This document shows positions 32,033 through 46,203 of a stretch of DNA of 64,000 nt, in pieces (positions within the stretch are counted from its first letter, which is position 1; every line of letters starts with the position of its first letter). The notes below the pieces were generated by a model that did no database searches, had not been told where the DNA came from, and was given only the letters and a program-made list of their open reading frames with translations. The stretch comes from Candidatus Aminicenantota bacterium. Lineage in GTDB: Bacteria > Acidobacteriota > Aminicenantia > Aminicenantales > Aminicenantaceae. A program made the position numbers and the translations under genes. The stretch lies in the NCBI GenBank assembly GCA_014727835.1, contig WJMT01000129.1, positions 1 to 64,000 on the forward strand, written 5' to 3'.

Positions 32033-34627
32033 TTAGTTCATCTGGGGGTAGAGCAGAGCATTCAGCAGGAATTTGTAAGTTCCGTGAGACTGGGCTCTGT
32101 GCTGGCACCGGATTCCGATGAGCACAAAGCGGCCTTTTTTGTATTTCACATCCACCACCGCTGCTTTTCGGCTCAGGGTGTCTTCTCCCAGAAGCCATCC
32201 GCTGAGCAGGATATCTTTTTTAGGATAACTGGCGACCACTGTGCGATCCCATTCCATATCCGGGATGCTGGTTCGGAAAGCTTTGCTTCGGGAAAAGACC
32301 GCTGCTTTTTCTGCCGTCATTCCATAACCGATCGGAGATCTTTTGTTCACTTCCAGTTTCAGGATTGACGTGGGGCAGAAAAACTGACTTCTGGAGACGC
32401 CTTCCAAGGAATTGGAGACAGGGGGATTGAATTCTTCAATAACCAGTTCACAGGCATCATTTAAAGTGACCAGGATCCCTCCTTTGGCCACGAAATTCTT
32501 CAATGCCTCCACTCCCTGTTTGCCGATTCCTCCTTCGTATTCAGGTGGGCCTTCTGTGTAGTATCGAGCGTATCTGGATTTGGGATCTGGTTTTCCCATT
32601 TTGATGATGTCAGGGCTTTCGCTGGCAAAGATGATCACATCGAAAATTTCATTCAAGTCAGCGGGCTGGTCTTTTTTATCCTTGAAATCCTTGTTATGAA
32701 TGGTGGTGTAGGGGACTTCCAGGTCGTCCAAAACATAGCGGGTCCATCCTTCGTCCATGTTGGATTTCCACGATTGGTAGAGGGCAATTTTTGAGTTTTT
32801 CACAGGACTCTTTTTGATTTCAGATATATCGTTGATGGAATGAGCTTGAACATTCCATTTTTCAAGAAGTAGCGGGAGGTCTTTTTGGACCTGGGGAGTG
32901 TTCTCCACAAGAAAACTTCCAAAACAGGCATGAAATCCATCTCCGTTGACCGGCCCTTGGGCGCGGAAGACTTTGGGATTGCTTTTCAGCAAACCAAACA
33001 CCACTGAGTAAGAGGCGTTCTTTTTAGAGTCCAGTACAATGTATGGAACTTCTTGGCTGGGAGGCTGGATATTGGGATCAGGGATTTCATCCAGTTTGAT
33101 GAGTTCGGTCTCAAAAGGAGTGTCGATCTGTTCACTGGTCACTCCCATCTGAAGAGGGAGGGTCCATCCGGCATTGTCATAGGGGGGCTCTGGAGGTCCG
33201 CCCGGGTACTGCCGGATATTCGGATATTCCTGTTTTTCGAGGAGAGATTGAGCATACGGCCGGTAGGGTTGGGACATCAAGACCACAAAGGATCCGGCAG
33301 GAAACACTTTTCCGTCAGCCACAAAATCTTTTTTGGCCTGATGGATCTCCACTCCTCCGAAATGGAGGATTTCCAGCATCCGGAGGGTGGTGGGATAGTC
33401 TCTTTGGTCTTTGGAGATCACAAAGGCAAATGGCTGGCCTGGTTCCCTGATTTCCACAGCATCTTTGCACATCTTGTAGAAATTGAACAGCAGGTCTTGT
33501 TTGTGAAGATGGGCTGTTTTGACCAGAGATTTGGATAAAGTCAGTTCATATTCCACCAAATCTCGCAAACGCCACCATCCTCCCATCCAGGGGTCCGGAA
33601 ACTGAAGTCTTTTTTCGACATAAGAGTCCGGAAGTTCATTGGGCTCTATATAAATGGGGGTTGCCACTCGCACAGAAGCCATTTCACTGAGAAGACCGAT
33701 GCAGTTGTGAAGCCAGGATGTGTCATCACAAGCCCCGATCCACCATCCGGTGAAGCTCCGTCCGTGCACCACTCCCTTGAATCCGTTTTTCTGGAGGTCA
33801 TAGGCCATGTTCATGCCGCACAAGGCCACTCCTCTCCAGAGAAGGGGATGGATGGTGGGCACAGGCGGATCTTTGAACGGCGGGATAAACAGACGTGCTC
33901 CGGTGGATCCCATTTGATGTTCGTCGATATGGATCTGGGGGATCCAGTCATGATAAAGGACTTTGGTGACAGCCCGGGTCTCTTTCAGATTGAACATAAA
34001 CCAGTCCCGGTTGTCATCATGACCTGCATAGTGATGATAAAGCCAGGGCATGCGGGATCCTTCATATTTGGTGCCCACATGCTTTCTGTACCACTCGGTG
34101 ACCATCTGTTCTCCGTCAGGATTGGTGGAAGGGACCAGGAGCACGATCACATCCTGAAGCGCTTGTTCTGTGTTGAAAGGAGTGTTTCCTGTGACCAGGT
34201 CATAGGCCAATTCCATAGACATCTGAGAAGAGGCGATTTCTGTGGAATGGATGTTGCAAGTCATCAGCAAGATGGCTTTTCCTTTTTGGGCCAGGTCTTT
34301 GGCTTGTTCCGGGCTCAATCCTCTCGTGTTTCTGAGTTTTTTGGTGATCTGAGTGTAGGTGTCCAGCTGAGCCATGTTTTCTTCCTCAGTGATGACCGCC
34401 ATGATGATGGGTTTTCCGAGGGTTGATTCTCCGATGGTCAGGACCTTGATCTTGTCAGATTCTTCATCCAGTTTTTGAAAATATTCTGTGATTTGACTGT
34501 AGTCCGCCAGCTTTCTGTCAGCGCCCACTTTGTATCCTAAGAATTCTTCGGGGTGAGTCTGGGCTGATAACACAAAGGGAATCAGTAACAGAGCCATGCA
34601 GACAAAGATCAATCGTTTTTTATTCAT
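32033..34627 (-). CDS. M14 family zinc carboxypeptidase, exported
   Basis: 864 residues with a signal peptide ending near SAQ (residue 22). The M14 domain (about 30-330) has the zinc motif H-S-T-E near residue 128, the substrate arginine in DDNRDWF, and the second zinc histidine in IDEHQMG near residue 236. Conserved GARLFIPPF follows. The remaining 500 residues contain a beta-rich part and a likely class I amidotransferase-like fold. AGGAGG at 34641-34636 lies 8 bases before the start. It likely trims peptides outside the cytoplasm and converges with the M42 pair. Confidence 0.88.
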   Translation of the reverse strand: MNKKRLIFVCMALLLIPFVLSAQTHPEEFLGYKVGADRKLADYSQITEYFQKLDEESDKIKVLTIGESTLGKPIIMAVITEEENMAQLDTYTQITKKLRNTRGLSPEQAKDLAQKGKAILLMTCNIHSTEIASSQMSMELAYDLVTGNTPFNTEQALQDVIVLLVPSTNPDGEQMVTEWYRKHVGTKYEGSRMPWLYHHYAGHDDNRDWFMFNLKETRAVTKVLYHDWIPQIHIDEHQMGSTGARLFIPPFKDPPVPTIHPLLWRGVALCGMNMAYDLQKNGFKGVVHGRSFTGWWIGACDDTSWLHNCIGLLSEMASVRVATPIYIEPNELPDSYVEKRLQFPDPWMGGWWRLRDLVEYELTLSKSLVKTAHLHKQDLLFNFYKMCKDAVEIREPGQPFAFVISKDQRDYPTTLRMLEILHFGGVEIHQAKKDFVADGKVFPAGSFVVLMSQPYRPYAQSLLEKQEYPNIRQYPGGPPEPPYDNAGWTLPLQMGVTSEQIDTPFETELIKLDEIPDPNIQPPSQEVPYIVLDSKKNASYSVVFGLLKSNPKVFRAQGPVNGDGFHACFGSFLVENTPQVQKDLPLLLEKWNVQAHSINDISEIKKSPVKNSKIALYQSWKSNMDEGWTRYVLDDLEVPYTTIHNKDFKDKKDQPADLNEIFDVIIFASESPDIIKMGKPDPKSRYARYYTEGPPEYEGGIGKQGVEALKNFVAKGGILVTLNDACELVIEEFNPPVSNSLEGVSRSQFFCPTSILKLEVNKRSPIGYGMTAEKAAVFSRSKAFRTSIPDMEWDRTVVASYPKKDILLSGWLLGEDTLSRKAAVVDVKYKKGRFVLIGIRCQHRAQSHGTYKFLLNALLYPQMN

Positions 34628-39790: not shown

Positions 39791-40423
39791 TCATTTCAAG
39801 TATTTGAAAAAATAATCTGAAACTGGACCGTGTTCTTTCCAATTTTTGAATTCTGTTTCAGTCCAGTCATGGTTGCTGTAAGTCACTTTCATCCATTGAA
39901 TCCGGTCCCTTTGGTCTACTCTGAATGCAATGGATTTGTAGGTCAGATTTGAAGTTCCCTTGGGTTCAAGCCTATACTGATCCTTGCTCTCATCATAGGT
40001 GATCTCATAGTTATTCTTGATTTCTGTTTTGGTTTCACCGAGCACCGGGATCAGAAGACGGGGCATTCCTTGCTGGGAAGTCAGGTCTTCAAAATCATAG
40101 GCCTTCACTTCTCCCAGGTCATGATCGATGATGTGTATGGTCTGGCCGTCACAATACAGCTCATAGTTTTCATCCCCTTTGAGCTTGATCCGGAAAAAGT
40201 GGGGATATTTGTAGTGAAAGGTGCCGTGCAAAGAGACCTCATCCACAAGAAACTCTGTGCTTTTGGTCTGCTTGATATCACAGGTGATCAGATTTTGATC
40301 TTTCAGCTGTTTTTCCCATTTGGTGAGAAGCTCATCAATGTCCTGACTTAAGGAAAAATGAACAGTGAAGACAAAAAAAACAGACAAGAACAGCAAACAG
40401 AAAAAAATGGATTTAAATCTCAT
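39791..40423 (-). CDS. LolA-like outer-membrane lipoprotein carrier
   Basis: 210 residues with a signal peptide (about 1-26). The pattern TCDIKQTKSTEF, GTFHYKYPHFFRIKL and YELYCDGQTIHIIDHDLGEV fits the LolA/LppX barrel that shelters acyl chains in the periplasm. AAGGAG lies before ATG 40423, and the start overlaps the MMPL gene by ATGA. Together they suggest a carrier for the lipid moved by that exporter rather than the general lipoprotein carrier. Longer upstream reading to 40555 overlaps the exporter gene and is unlikely. Confidence 0.82.
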   Translation of the reverse strand: MRFKSIFFCLLFLSVFFVFTVHFSLSQDIDELLTKWEKQLKDQNLITCDIKQTKSTEFLVDEVSLHGTFHYKYPHFFRIKLKGDENYELYCDGQTIHIIDHDLGEVKAYDFEDLTSQQGMPRLLIPVLGETKTEIKNNYEITYDESKDQYRLEPKGTSNLTYKSIAFRVDQRDRIQWMKVTYSNHDWTETEFKNWKEHGPVSDYFFKYLK

Positions 40424-42933
40424 AGGTGACTCCTTTTCAGAAAAGAGGGGAGAAGAAACATAGTGAAAAGCCAGCAGGCAAAAATTCCAAAGCTCACGAT
40501 TTTTCCGGTGTTGGAAACCAAAGGGGAGGAAGAGAGCAAAAGGGTGAGAAAGCAAATCATGGTGGAAGCTGTGGTGAGGGTGAGCACCGGAGCGATCTCC
40601 CTGAGGATTTCAGAGATATCTTTGTCAGGGCTGCTTATTTTTCGGTGGATGAGATGCACAGAGTCGTCAATGCCGATTCCAATGACCATTGCCACCACTC
40701 CGATCAAGGCAGGAGAGAATCGAATGGACAAGAGAGTCACCAAAGCAAGAGTCAGAGGGATGGCCCCTATTAAGGGCAGCAGAGAGACCAATAATAATCG
40801 AATTTTTTTGAAGTATAACAAAAGGATGATGGAAATGATTCCTCCGGCCCACAGGCTGATGGAAACGAAATCCCTTTTGATGATGGTGTTGACCGATTGG
40901 TGAACCTGATAAGTCCCTGTGAGCTGCTTTTCAATATAGGGGGGAGATGGAAGATTTTCCAGCTTCTCAGAAACACTGAGCAGAAGATCCTGTTTGGCCA
41001 GCTCTTTTTTTGGCCACACATAGGTCTGTAAAAAGAAATGCTTTCCCTGTTTTTTTATGAAGCGGGAGAAAGAAGGATGATCGGATAATGAAACCAGATT
41101 CTCCATTTTGAAAATCTCTTCCAAAAGGTCATAGTATTCTTTATGACGGTCCAGGACACGGAATCCGGATCGGTTCATCTGTTTGAAAAAAAAGGAACGA
41201 TTCTCTTTGATCCGGGAGGAAACATCACAGATCTGAGCCAGGCGGGCCTGCACCTGATCCTCAGGAACATAGAACATAGAGGGTGAATAAAATCCGGTAA
41301 TTTTCTCTTCTTGAGCCAGTGCAATGAGGTGCTGATCCAAATTTTTTTGATACTGCATTCCTTTGGAAAGCTGGTCTGTCTTGAGAGTGACTTGAGTGCT
41401 CAATATAAAGGAAGAACCAAATTTTTGGGAAACATGCCGGGCGTTTGTAAGTGACGGGATATTCTGGGGGAGCAGTTTGAATAAAGACATATCGAATCTC
41501 AGATTCATCATCACCAGGATTGACAGAATGATGATGCTGAAAGCAGCGATACGGCTGAAGTCTGTTTTTTTTAGGGACAGGCGGTACAAGATGCGGGGCA
41601 AAGCTCCTAAAGAGGTCAGCTTGACCTGAGCTGAGGAACGGGGCTTCAGCCACCTCACCACCGCGGGAAACAAGACCAGGGTCACAGTTAAAGACAGGAA
41701 AAGACTGATGCTTGTGAGCAGTCCGAACTGTCTGAGAGCAGGGTAGCGGGAAAAGCTCAACACCAGAAATCCGCAGGCTGTGGTGGTGATTCCTATGAAT
41801 AAAGGGGGACCGCAGTCAGTCAGAGTGATTTGGAGAGCCTTATCCAGGGATTTTAGTTTTTTATGATATTGGAAAAAACGGCTGGATAAGTGGAAAGTGA
41901 TATCCACTCCCAGGCCCAATACAATTGCAGCAAATCCAATGGAGATCATTTTCAAAGGATTGAAAAACAGGCTTGCGACCAGAAGAGAGCCATACACAGA
42001 GAAAAAGATAGGAAGAAAACACATCAGGGTAACCTTCAGGTTTCTGAAGACCAGAATGAGCAGGGTGAAAATAAGGATCGATGAGATCACATTGATCACA
42101 AAGATTTCTTTATTCAGGATGGAATGGGTTTCTGCTGTGAGGCCGTATTTTCCTGCAAATTCACAGGTTATGGATTGAGAGCCCGGAAGAGATGATTTGA
42201 TATGCATGATTTTTTCACTGATCTCTGTGGTGAGTTCAATGCAGTACTGAGTATCTTCCCCTGAACCGCGTGGCTGGGCAAAGATCAGGCGGGAAGACAT
42301 GTCTTGTGAGTCAAAGTAAAAACTGTGTGGTGAAATTTTGTAATTGGCCATAAAGTTTTTGAGCCAGGATTCAAGCAGCTCCCTGAGATGGAACACATCC
42401 ACAGCAATCAGTTCTCTCAATCCGGGATGACCGGTCATCACGACCTGTTTTCGGGTTCGAATGATCTCTGTTTGGATTCCTTGTTCTGTGAATTTATCTG
42501 AAAACAAGGATAGATATTTGTCAGGATCTTGAAAAATCACTGCCCGACACATTTGTACCAATTGGTCTTGCTCAGCCAAATCAAATAGTCCGGACTGCAC
42601 ATAACGGATCTCCTTCATGCCCGCAAGCTCTTGGACCAATGCTTGAGTGAACTGATCTCTCACCTGCTCATCGGTCTGAGAATGCTTCTGCAGGAGGACC
42701 AGGGGAGTGCTCTCTCCGAATCTTTTGTAATTGTCTATAAAAAGCTTGAATTCTTTTCCGCGCAGACCTTTTGCGTCTAAAAGCATGGGTTCGATTTTTA
42801 AATTTTTCAAAAGCAGCGGCCCTGAGATCAGTACCAAGACGGAGACAAGAAGAATGATCCTGTGTTTTCTGTAAGAAAAGAGGGCCAGGGCAGAGAAGAA
42901 GCCAGTTATTTTTTTATAAAATTTAGGTTTCAT
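40420..42933 (-). CDS. MMPL/RND family exporter
   Basis: 837 residues with the RND pattern: one N-terminal membrane helix, a large loop, five helices (about 270-420), then the same again. GLGVDITFHLSSRF (near 350) and GIGIDDSVHLIHR (near 760) are the repeated TM4 motifs with acidic residues for proton coupling. It resembles HpnN-type and MMPL transporters that move hydrophobic lipids. It overlaps the upstream CrtC/AttH-synthase gene by 11 bases and the LolA-like gene by 4, so the three are one translational unit. Confidence 0.88.
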   Translation of the reverse strand: MKPKFYKKITGFFSALALFSYRKHRIILLVSVLVLISGPLLLKNLKIEPMLLDAKGLRGKEFKLFIDNYKRFGESTPLVLLQKHSQTDEQVRDQFTQALVQELAGMKEIRYVQSGLFDLAEQDQLVQMCRAVIFQDPDKYLSLFSDKFTEQGIQTEIIRTRKQVVMTGHPGLRELIAVDVFHLRELLESWLKNFMANYKISPHSFYFDSQDMSSRLIFAQPRGSGEDTQYCIELTTEISEKIMHIKSSLPGSQSITCEFAGKYGLTAETHSILNKEIFVINVISSILIFTLLILVFRNLKVTLMCFLPIFFSVYGSLLVASLFFNPLKMISIGFAAIVLGLGVDITFHLSSRFFQYHKKLKSLDKALQITLTDCGPPLFIGITTTACGFLVLSFSRYPALRQFGLLTSISLFLSLTVTLVLFPAVVRWLKPRSSAQVKLTSLGALPRILYRLSLKKTDFSRIAAFSIIILSILVMMNLRFDMSLFKLLPQNIPSLTNARHVSQKFGSSFILSTQVTLKTDQLSKGMQYQKNLDQHLIALAQEEKITGFYSPSMFYVPEDQVQARLAQICDVSSRIKENRSFFFKQMNRSGFRVLDRHKEYYDLLEEIFKMENLVSLSDHPSFSRFIKKQGKHFFLQTYVWPKKELAKQDLLLSVSEKLENLPSPPYIEKQLTGTYQVHQSVNTIIKRDFVSISLWAGGIISIILLLYFKKIRLLLVSLLPLIGAIPLTLALVTLLSIRFSPALIGVVAMVIGIGIDDSVHLIHRKISSPDKDISEILREIAPVLTLTTASTMICFLTLLLSSSPLVSNTGKIVSFGIFACWLFTMFLLPSFLKRSHL

Positions 42934-45112
42934 AATTGAAATTGAGCAGACCTGTGATCATCAGTTTGATTTGAATTTTTGCCTCGGTCATAGGGATGAC
43001 TCGGGAGAGTTTTTTCCATTCTTTGTCAATCATGTCTGCCGCTTCTTTTTTGCATAGGGCGAGAACTCCGGAGTTGTAAATCAAGTCTGTAGCAGCAGCC
43101 AGTTGTTCCGGTTCCTTTCTCCTTTTTTTTGAACACAAAATCGACAACAGGATCTCTGACTCTTTGTTCTCTAAACACTGGATGGCTCTGTGAATGACAT
43201 AGGTCAGTTTTCCAGAAGAAATGTCTTCTCCGGGTTTTTTGGTCCATTCCGGAGATTTACTGAAGTTGTGTATGTCATCGATAATCTGGAAAGCAGTGCC
43301 AAACGCAGCGGCCATGGCTCTGTATCTCTGTCTGACCTGATCGCTGGATTTGGCAATCACACAGGCTGCCTCACTGCCTCCCACTACAGCAGCTCCTGTT
43401 TTTTGTGCATACATCTGTAAGATCTTATCTTCCAGAGAGTCCTCACTCCAAGTTTTATAATGGTCTTTGGTTAAGTATTTAGACCAGTAAATGTCCATGG
43501 CCTGGCCAAAATGGGCTTGGATCATGGTTTGGTTTGTGATCTCAAGCAATTTTCTTTTCTGGTCTTCATTGAGAAGTGAATTGTTCTGGATCAAAAGCGT
43601 TGGCAGAAAATACAATATGCATCCGGCATTGATGGCAACATCTTTCCCGTACTTCAGATGCAGGCATTTTTCACCTCTTCGGATAAGGGATTTGTCTTCA
43701 ATATCATCGATAATCAGGGCTCCGGTGTGGTTGAGTTCCAATGTGCTGCAGATCAATGTTTCATAAGGTTTGGGGTCCACACCCAGAGATTCCAAGGCCA
43801 GAAGCCCGAATACAGGCCTCCATCTTTTTCCTTTCCTGGAAATCAGGTCCCAAACAGGTTCGGAAAGCACAGACGTCAAAGCCTCAGGGTCGTGTTTCCA
43901 TAGTGGTTTTCCCGCGAACTGTTCCATATGCGAGCTTTTGATTTTTTTCGGCAGAAATGATTCGATGACCCGGTCAATTTTTTGGGAGAAGGCTTGGAGA
44001 TGCTTTTTGTAATCAAACAGATAGCCATAACCGTGCAATTCCAAACGGGCTCTTCCGGAAATGTCCTGACCGTCAATGGATCCTCTCACTTCTCCAGCAC
44101 CTTCCCAGATGGCACGGATAACTCCAAAAAAAGGGATTTCCTGGTCCTGATGAAAGGGAGTAAAATGGAGCTGGGCTTTGAGTTCTGGAATGGTGATCTT
44201 CCATTGGATCGGATAGATGATGTGTGAGTGGGGGCTTTCCCAAAAGCCGGTGGGCTCCATGATGATATCATTGAGGGCTCGTGAAGGAGAACCAATGGGA
44301 CGGTACAATCCTCCCTGTTTGATGAGCTTATTTGATTCCATATCCCTGTGTGCAGTGACCACCATGTCAGAACCATCATTCAAGTTGATCCCGATCCAGT
44401 CCCATCCCAGATACCTTTTTTCGTCAAGTTTTTCAATGAACCAGTTGTTGAAATCACCCCATTGATGGTCCATCCATGCGTTACCTTTCACCGTCAGAGA
44501 ATTGATTTTCCCTGATAAATTCATTCGGGGATACGTGTTGTAGCAAGTCGTTTCCAGGTTGGGCAGGTCACGATCATGAAGATGTATGACTTTTTGCTGA
44601 GGGATTAATTTCAATTGGATGAATTTTTGACTTGAAGGAGCCTTGAATGACAAGTGGAAAGCCTGGCTCTTTTGCACCAAAGAAAAATCACCCCAGCGAA
44701 TTGTGAGCGGTTTGCCTTTTAGGTCAACAGGATCTGAGATAACTTTTATGGGAGAGGGAGGTCCGTAAGTTTTGATTTCCTTCATATAAGCTTGAAAGAG
44801 AACAGGATCCAGATTTCCTGATTCCTCTTGAAGGAGAAGAAAGGTCTCATTCAAATTTTTAAGAACATCTCGGTGAATCTGGCTGATAGAGTGAGAAACA
44901 TTTTTTTTCAGGTCCAGATTAGAACAAATGAGATAAAACACCTGTTTGTCTTTTTCAGGAGGATCTTTTTTGATTTTTTGGCGGAACAAAGAGAGCATAA
45001 AATAGTTCTTATCAATCTGGGATCCTTCAAAAAATCCTTGAAAAAACCACCATTCCAGAGGAGTCTCAAAATGAGGGGACTCGTCAGCTAGCTTCACATT
45101 TTTTTCTTTCAA
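42923..45112 (-). CDS. CrtC/AttH-like domain fused to polyprenyl diphosphate synthase
   Basis: 729 residues. The N-terminal domain (about 10-370) matches the lipocalin-like CrtC/AttH group: TPLEWWFFQG, AWMDHQWGDF and LGWDWIGINLNDGSD. The C-terminal part (about 395-729) is a trans-prenyl synthase with RKGKRWRP, the first aspartate-rich motif IIDDIED (near 470) and GQAMDIYW. The second motif is IIDDIHN (near 612), where the usual last aspartate is replaced by asparagine. The start codon is TTG 45112 or GTG 45097; no ATG is available. It probably makes and modifies an isoprenoid. Such a fusion is unusual as far as I know. Confidence 0.85.
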   Translation of the reverse strand: MKEKNVKLADESPHFETPLEWWFFQGFFEGSQIDKNYFMLSLFRQKIKKDPPEKDKQVFYLICSNLDLKKNVSHSISQIHRDVLKNLNETFLLLQEESGNLDPVLFQAYMKEIKTYGPPSPIKVISDPVDLKGKPLTIRWGDFSLVQKSQAFHLSFKAPSSQKFIQLKLIPQQKVIHLHDRDLPNLETTCYNTYPRMNLSGKINSLTVKGNAWMDHQWGDFNNWFIEKLDEKRYLGWDWIGINLNDGSDMVVTAHRDMESNKLIKQGGLYRPIGSPSRALNDIIMEPTGFWESPHSHIIYPIQWKITIPELKAQLHFTPFHQDQEIPFFGVIRAIWEGAGEVRGSIDGQDISGRARLELHGYGYLFDYKKHLQAFSQKIDRVIESFLPKKIKSSHMEQFAGKPLWKHDPEALTSVLSEPVWDLISRKGKRWRPVFGLLALESLGVDPKPYETLICSTLELNHTGALIIDDIEDKSLIRRGEKCLHLKYGKDVAINAGCILYFLPTLLIQNNSLLNEDQKRKLLEITNQTMIQAHFGQAMDIYWSKYLTKDHYKTWSEDSLEDKILQMYAQKTGAAVVGGSEAACVIAKSSDQVRQRYRAMAAAFGTAFQIIDDIHNFSKSPEWTKKPGEDISSGKLTYVIHRAIQCLENKESEILLSILCSKKRRKEPEQLAAATDLIYNSGVLALCKKEAADMIDKEWKKLSRVIPMTEAKIQIKLMITGLLNFNYET

Positions 45113-45279
45113 TGATATTTGGCATTAATATACCAGCAGGGGAATATATTGCAACTTTTGTTTATCACACAAAGAAAAAAAATATTTTTTTTGAGCTCTT
45201 TTTATGGAAGAGAAGGAATCCCCAGGGGAATGATCTAACAAATCCCGCCACTTGTTTGCGAATGGTCCGGGGCCGTGAT

Positions 45280-46203
45280 TTATTCCAAAATATTCAAAGC
45301 AGAAGGAAGAATAGAGGCTTGAAAATCTCTAATCCCAGGAATGATTTGGCCGTCGTATTGAATATTGATCGGCTCTTGAGAAGAGACTGAAAAACTTTTA
45401 TTTTGGAGATACCGAATTTCTTTTTTGTGCTTGTGTTTTTGCCTCCATACAGAGTAAGCAAACCGGGCTGTGTGCATGAAAGAAGTGGTGTGAATGATGC
45501 TGCAGTCCAGTTTTCCGTCAAAGGGAGAGGCCCAAGGACACACCCTCAGTCCTCCGGCATAACAAGGAACATTGGAAAAGACCACAATGGAAGATTCAAT
45601 ATTGTGTGTGGAGTCATCTGAGGACAATTGAATTTTCATGGGAATGTTTTGATGCTGGAAGGAATGGCGGGCTCCTAAAAAACCAGCCCAGACCTGGATG
45701 AGTTTTCCGTATTTAGCCCGCAGGGGATGTTGCTTCCAGTAATGAGCCACAAATTGATTGATGGTGGCCCCCAGGCCTAGACTGAGAGAACCCACGAAAT
45801 AAATTTTTTCTGACCTTCCTTTTATTTCCAGTAAACCAAGGTCCATCTGCCGGGTTTTGCTCTCCAGCAAAGATTGGATTGTAGAATCAACGGAATGGAT
45901 TCCAAGAGACATGGCAATGTCATTGGCAGAACCCGTGGGCATGAGATACAGAGTGGGTTGATAGGGGCTTTTGTGAATCTCAGAAGCAGCGATCTGAAAG
46001 GAGGTATCCCCACCCACGACCAGAATGACTTGGAATGACCTGGCTTTTTCTTGAGCCAGCTGTCTGAAGTGGTTTTCTGATCGGGAACAGAACCATTGGA
46101 AAGGTATGGAGTTCTGCTTTAACAGGGCTTTGATGCGGTCTTCTTTTTTTAAGGACAGCCCCCGCCCAGAGGACGGATTGAACAGAATGGCCATTTTGTC
46201 CAT
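45280..46203 (-). CDS. Diacylglycerol-kinase-like lipid kinase with altered GGDGT motif
   Basis: 307 residues. MAILFNPSSGRG and MPTGSANDIAMSLGI (near residue 90) place it in the DAGK catalytic family, which phosphorylates lipids at the inner membrane. The nucleotide-binding GGDGT is VVGGDTSF here (near residue 63), one glycine short, so activity or nucleotide use may differ. The gene heads a run of lipid genes on the same strand. A TGATATAAT extended -10 (46222-46214 region) lies 11 bases before ATG 46203, implying a very short leader. Confidence 0.82.
   Translation of the reverse strand: MDKMAILFNPSSGRGLSLKKEDRIKALLKQNSIPFQWFCSRSENHFRQLAQEKARSFQVILVVGGDTSFQIAASEIHKSPYQPTLYLMPTGSANDIAMSLGIHSVDSTIQSLLESKTRQMDLGLLEIKGRSEKIYFVGSLSLGLGATINQFVAHYWKQHPLRAKYGKLIQVWAGFLGARHSFQHQNIPMKIQLSSDDSTHNIESSIVVFSNVPCYAGGLRVCPWASPFDGKLDCSIIHTTSFMHTARFAYSVWRQKHKHKKEIRYLQNKSFSVSSQEPINIQYDGQIIPGIRDFQASILPSALNILE

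Follow-up and report, generated by a model that had tools for sequence, protein, structure and literature searches.

Locus and gene layout

The 64,000-nucleotide stretch of DNA analysed here (the window) is part of a 156-kb contig (WJMT01000129.1) in a draft genome of Candidatus Aminicenantota (G000), and it carries a run of genes that a first-pass annotation had interpreted as a lipid cluster built around the fusion of a CrtC/AttH-type lipocalin to an isoprenyl diphosphate synthase. Inspection of the open reading frames together with a Pfam check gives four genes, all on the minus strand, encoding a lipid kinase, the fusion, an MMPL exporter and a LolA-like carrier (Table 1). The overlaps described in that annotation are exact, with the fusion and MMPL genes sharing 11 bp (42923-42933) and the MMPL and LolA genes 4 bp (40420-40423), the latter if LolA starts at ATG 40423, its likely start, rather than at TTG 40555. 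The fusion itself probably begins at GTG 45097 rather than TTG 45112.

Table 1. Coordinates of the genes, domains and motifs of the locus within the window
Feature	Position	Strand	Remarks
LolA-like carrier	39791..40423	-	Pfam LolA; N-terminal signal-peptide-like stretch
RND/MMPL exporter, HpnN-like	40420..42933	-	837 aa; Pfam MMPL; nearest solved structure HpnN
CrtC/AttH-lipocalin and trans-isoprenyl diphosphate synthase fusion	42923..45112	-	729 aa from TTG 45112; Pfam; relatives in 9 other genomes
Polyprenyl synthase domain	43091..43870	-	Residues 415-674, Pfam
Second aspartate-rich motif DDIHN	43265..43279	-	Residues 612-616
First aspartate-rich motif DDIED	43694..43708	-	Residues 469-473
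Double lipocalin, Pfam-matched part	44027..44719	-	PF07143 residues 132-219, PF17186 residues 234-362
Promoter-like site TTGCAA-16-TATATT, just upstream of fusion	45127..45154	-	Consensus match only
YegS/DAGK-type lipid kinase	45280..46203	-	Pfam; neighbour, probably outside the conserved set

Distribution of the fusion

The fusion is real. Its single frame matches CrtC (PF07143, 1.9e-13), Lipocalin_9 (PF17186, 6e-23) and polyprenyl_synt (PF00348, 2e-51), and a class-wide scan found it full length, again as one frame, in 10 of 142 Aminicenantia genomes (G000, G014, G119, G008, G079, G126, G043, G081, G042 and, more distant, G001), with two copies in G008; G045 has the synthase half only. Strong matches in a phylum sample of 396 genomes were confined to Aminicenantia members, and a contig scan returned close relatives only. 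Beyond Acidobacteriota the distribution is drawn from a plasmid collection alone, in which Streptomyces canus and Tolypothrix plasmids matched over 97% of the query, the Tolypothrix copy lying inside a 1530-residue protein that is greatly extended at its N terminus, and a Nitrosomonas stercoris plasmid held a degenerate form. Because the same fusion recurs in many metagenome-assembled genomes (MAGs), relatives included, and on plasmids, an assembly error, which the annotation had raised as a possible source, is ruled out. The fusion is not unique to the window's organism and forms part of a wider family. It is undescribed in the open-licence papers searched, which cover CrtC, the AttH structure and HpnN/Bst transport, and databases label its architecture only “polyprenyl synthetase”.

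Two further observations concern other members of this family. The Tolypothrix gene (L050:11535-16127) joins regions that by eye resemble a sulfotransferase and a glycosyltransferase to the CrtC-synthase unit, and it adjoins DevC-type exporter genes. A protein of about 330 residues is encoded convergently to the fusion only in G079, G043 and G042 (L038:2136-3140, L040:805-1812, L042:1584-2573), and its Asp-rich stretch SLDDAADVNRDRARGRTTY resembles class I prenyl/terpene enzymes. This neighbour of the second fusion clade was tried as a terpene synthase and set aside, as it matched nothing in Pfam and no solved structure credibly, and the window's genome has no ortholog of it.

The synthase domain

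Membership of the trans-isoprenyl diphosphate synthases is indicated by the PF00348 match, which passes the cut-off, and by the first DDxxD motif, present as DDIED. The domain keeps GKRWRP, DDIED, GQAMD, KT, DDIHN and GKLTY, and alignment of the fusions gives GKRWRP, DDIED, GQxxD, KT, DDxx[N/G] and GKxTY as conserved; the catalytic motifs of the synthase proposed in the annotation are retained. In the second DDxxD motif the first two Asp are retained and the third is Asn, and most fusion copies carry Asn or Gly at this position. A tree limited to the fusion synthases and the ordinary synthases of Aminicenantia places the synthase domains of all fusions in one clade, apart from the ordinary ones (support 100/99).

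Exporter, carrier and the conserved gene set

The MMPL exporter (PF03176, 4e-25) misses the curated HpnN cut-offs (TIGR03480, 154 of 752 bits; NF052374, 86 of 1100) and also that of the HAE3 model, and the plasmid collection gave no strong match to it. The carrier belongs with PF03548 (4e-13; 49.8 bits against a cut-off of 23.6) and falls short of the LolA and LolA2 equivalog cut-offs (52 of 112 and 53 of 125 bits), its best NCBIfam match, LolA2_flexi, being likewise below cut-off.

The annotation had proposed looking for the same fusion and neighbours elsewhere, and the three genes prove to be shared by exactly four of the 142 genomes. Strong MMPL orthologs occur in G000, G008, G014 and G119 only, LolA orthologs in precisely these four, and so do the closest fusions (at least 61% identity). 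The four genomes span four genera and two families, and all three genes are absent in congeners such as G034, G013 and G015. A single coincidence of this kind has a chance of about 6e-8 on the assumption of independent genomes, which holds only in part.

The set extends to genes that the annotation missed, namely an aldehyde dehydrogenase and an HpnA-like reductase/epimerase, joined in two genomes by a short-chain dehydrogenase/reductase (SDR). The order in G014 is fusion, MMPL, LolA, aldehyde dehydrogenase, HpnA-like gene and SDR; in G008 the aldehyde dehydrogenase, HpnA-like, SDR and MMPL genes adjoin the second fusion copy and LolA lies on another contig. Orthologs of the aldehyde dehydrogenase and HpnA-like genes with 58-71% identity sit elsewhere in the window's genome, paired on contig C110. 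The HpnA-like ortholog is thus found in three of the four genomes, with the aldehyde dehydrogenase adjoining in all three and the fusion and MMPL genes adjoining in G014 and G008; it was not found in G119, where the contig ends inside LolA. In NCBIfam this gene is nearest to HpnA and to the sterol demethylase protein SdmB, below their cut-offs. Flanking the C110 pair are a CDP-alcohol phosphatidyltransferase and a weakly matching LolA_like protein (L058:6650-11124).

These results bear on whether the fusion might be an ordinary housekeeping long-chain prenyl synthase, serving for example quinone side chains, that lies among these neighbours by accident. The canonical synthase motifs would suit such a role; however, the window's genome holds two other prenyl synthases, the fusion synthases group in a separate clade, most relatives have no fusion, and MMPL and LolA co-occur exactly with the closest fusions, which makes this explanation quite improbable.

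The lipocalin domain

Both Pfam halves of the lipocalin domain score over cut-off, and its best solved-structure match is AttH/NE1406 (PDB 2ich, 1.2e-15). An AlphaFold model of the fusion, built on an alignment of only three close sequences, was of poor quality, with a mean pLDDT of 44. No signal peptide is apparent on the fusion, and for this reason we read the lipocalin domain as cytosolic. We aligned it with CrtC from the photosynthesis plasmid of Roseobacter litoralis, whose H-I-W, Y-F-D and W-T-W motifs are spaced as His239/Trp241, Tyr266/Asp268 and Trp283/Trp285 of RgCrtC (PMC4717167; PMC12402844). The AWMDHQWG and GWDW stretches of the fusion align with GYFD and YWTW of the Roseobacter protein, so that Asp215 corresponds to Asp268, the proposed proton donor, and Trp237/Trp239 to Trp283/Trp285. 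Equivalents of Asp268, Trp283 and Trp285 are present in nearly all main-clade fusions. The Rubrivivax CrtC acts on free C12-C20 terpenoids (alcohols, ketones and acids), adding water at the omega end (PMC12402844).

Host lipid chemistry

Squalene/phytoene synthase was not detected in G008, G014 or G119, and a full squalene-hopene cyclase in none of the four genomes, where only partial PF13243 matches of about 75 residues were found, in proteins of about 330 residues without DxDD; both absences are limited by MAG completeness of 89-94%. The window's genome has a squalene/phytoene synthase-type gene inside a carotenoid operon on contig C44 (L048:6290-11309), which encodes IspH, a CrtI-like desaturase, a phytoene-synthase-like protein, a prenyl synthase of its own resembling geranylgeranyl diphosphate synthase (GGPPS) and a lycopene cyclase domain protein. 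Since three of four hosts lack squalene/phytoene synthase and none has the full cyclase, a carotenoid or hopanoid product is unlikely, and the gene set needs neither carotenoid nor squalene.

The fusion could still be a carotenoid enzyme, combining a geranylgeranyl diphosphate synthase with a true carotenoid 1,2-hydratase to give hydroxylated C40 carotenoids, and the operon on C44 speaks for this. However, that operon brings its own prenyl synthase, the same fusion is present in the three genomes in which no squalene/phytoene synthase was found, and residues essential in CrtC are missing; on the last two grounds the hydratase reading was rejected, and we hold it to be very improbable. The hopanoid reading was likewise rejected, as a full squalene-hopene cyclase was not found in the four genomes. 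Of the hopanoid analogy drawn in the annotation, it stands that HpnN is the exporter's nearest solved structure, but the HpnN cut-offs are missed and the full cyclase was not found. Separately, the proteins with a short match to the C-terminal domain of squalene-hopene cyclase are conserved at about 331 residues, without DxDD, in three of the four genomes (L067:3321-4313, L068:3612-4601, L069:2999-3991).

Proposed pathway and alternatives

Architecture, motifs, gene overlaps and co-occurrence are directly established. We give about an even chance to the best explanation taken as a whole, in which the fusion, MMPL and LolA genes are a cassette of patchy distribution: the fusion would make an isoprenoid (prenyl) lipid and probably modify it, and after oxidation the lipid would leave through MMPL and LolA, both the chemistry and the product being putative. 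Going by its motifs, the C-terminal domain of the fusion would condense isopentenyl diphosphate onto an allylic diphosphate to give an all-trans prenyl chain. The N-terminal double lipocalin would bind this chain in the cytosol and most likely alter its omega end, through protonation from Asp215 and then capture of water, with ring closure as a less certain alternative. A change in the oxidation state of the head group may then fall to the aldehyde dehydrogenase, the SDR and the HpnA-like NAD-dependent reductase/epimerase. Family membership and the overlapping genes suggest that the HpnN-like MMPL protein lifts the lipid from the inner membrane and that the secreted LolA-like protein ferries it through the periplasm. 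The annotation had proposed the same sequence of synthesis, modification, export and transfer; the conserved unit of fusion, MMPL and LolA and the intact synthase motifs uphold it in part, but the kinase falls away and modification is still an inference.

Several observations weigh against this explanation. RgCrtC depends on each of His239, Trp241 and Tyr266 (PMC4717167), and the aligned fusion, with Trp in place of Tyr266 and the His-x-Trp missing, has kept none of them; Trp110 is apparently not conserved either. Hydratase activity does not follow from the Asp and Trp that are kept, because they are also common to the functionally orphan AttH proteins; by its sequence the domain is AttH-like and only a candidate hydratase. 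The dehydrogenase genes are unlinked to the fusion in the window's genome, where no search for the SDR was made, and G040 has the HpnA-like gene but no fusion. Furthermore, G014 and G119 (loci L034 and L035) are 96% identical in the fusion and 94% in MMPL despite belonging to different families, and misbinning or recent transfer of this pair may inflate the co-occurrence count.

The main rival is that the AttH/CrtC domain only binds lipid, as a non-enzymatic module handing it from the synthase to the membrane or exporter, with a plain or oxidised prenyl lipid as product. The proximity of AttH genes and of other fusions to ABC-type exporters makes it plausible: stand-alone AttH genes in L045, L046 and Eleftheria have FtsX/MacB-type or ABC permeases as neighbours, and fusions are found near MacB/FtsX, ATPase and LolA_like genes in G126, near ABC genes on the S. 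canus plasmid and near the DevC-type exporter in Tolypothrix. The loss of three to four CrtC-essential positions fits this too, as do the lipid ligand binding proposed in the AttH structure paper (PMC2954199) and the faster divergence of the lipocalin half, the synthase halves being the more conserved in every fusion comparison. Against it, the Asp268/Trp283/Trp285 equivalents are kept in nearly all main-clade fusions, and fusion to a synthase often links consecutive catalytic steps. We consider such a hand-off role possible, though we do not expect it.

A bolder version of the enzymatic reading makes the AttH/CrtC domain a novel terpene cyclase or hydratase of lipocalin fold, started by protonation, that works directly on the chain from its fused partner. 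The product would be an outer-membrane lipid resembling hopanoids but needing neither squalene nor squalene-hopene cyclase, with the HpnN-, LolA- and HpnA-like proteins as matching export and tailoring. We regard this as a long shot. If the cassette does work as proposed, it would be a so far uncharacterised way for bacteria to make and export an isoprenoid lipid and deliver it towards the outer membrane, the functionally orphan AttH family would gain a substrate, and the cassette may show how a comparable lipid is built in some bacteria that have neither sterols nor hopanoids.

Neighbouring genes

The lipid kinase that the annotation included in the system does precede the fusion, across a 167-bp gap containing the promoter-like site (45154-45127), but no ortholog adjoins the fusion at the relatives' loci L034, L035 and L037, and the kinase was dropped as a pathway member on this ground. 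In the G126 region L039:9664-19242 the fusion lies near an M14 peptidase 41% identical to the product of the window gene at 32033-34627, and also near a YegS-type kinase 31% identical to the window's; a weak shared neighbourhood of these two genes is possible.

Comparison with known systems

The likeness to hopanoid export and biosynthesis lies in HpnN as the exporter's nearest solved structure and in the HpnA-like member of the conserved set; the cassette differs in that the HpnN and HpnA cut-offs are missed, no full squalene-hopene cyclase was found in the four genomes and three of them lack a detected squalene/phytoene synthase. The BstABC and SdmB sterol transport system of Methylococcus (PMC10942540) likewise has an RND protein and an SdmB/HpnA-like reductase near lipid genes, whereas BstB and BstC belong to families other than LolA; sterol genes were not sought in the present hosts. 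Flexirubin/aryl-polyene clusters share LolA2 as the best, sub-threshold match of the carrier, but no polyketide-type genes were seen among the immediate neighbours scanned. The synthase domain has its catalytic motifs in common with yeast GGPPS (2dh4) and other trans-isoprenyl diphosphate synthases, which differ in having no N-terminal lipocalin and in the third Asp of the second motif, replaced in most fusions. With CrtC (PF07143; Rubrivivax gelatinosus) the fusion shares double lipocalin domains, the Asp268/Trp283/Trp285 equivalents and, as likely ligand, a prenyl chain, whereas it lacks His239/Trp241/Tyr266 (and apparently Trp110), is joined to a synthase and, in three of four hosts, goes without a detected squalene/phytoene synthase. 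AttH/NE1406 (2ich) matches the lipocalin half best among solved structures, and AttH genes that neighbour ABC exporters of the FtsX type share the exporter neighbourhood; in L045 a stand-alone AttH has a signal-like stretch at its N terminus, whereas no signal peptide is apparent on the fusion, which carries a synthase.

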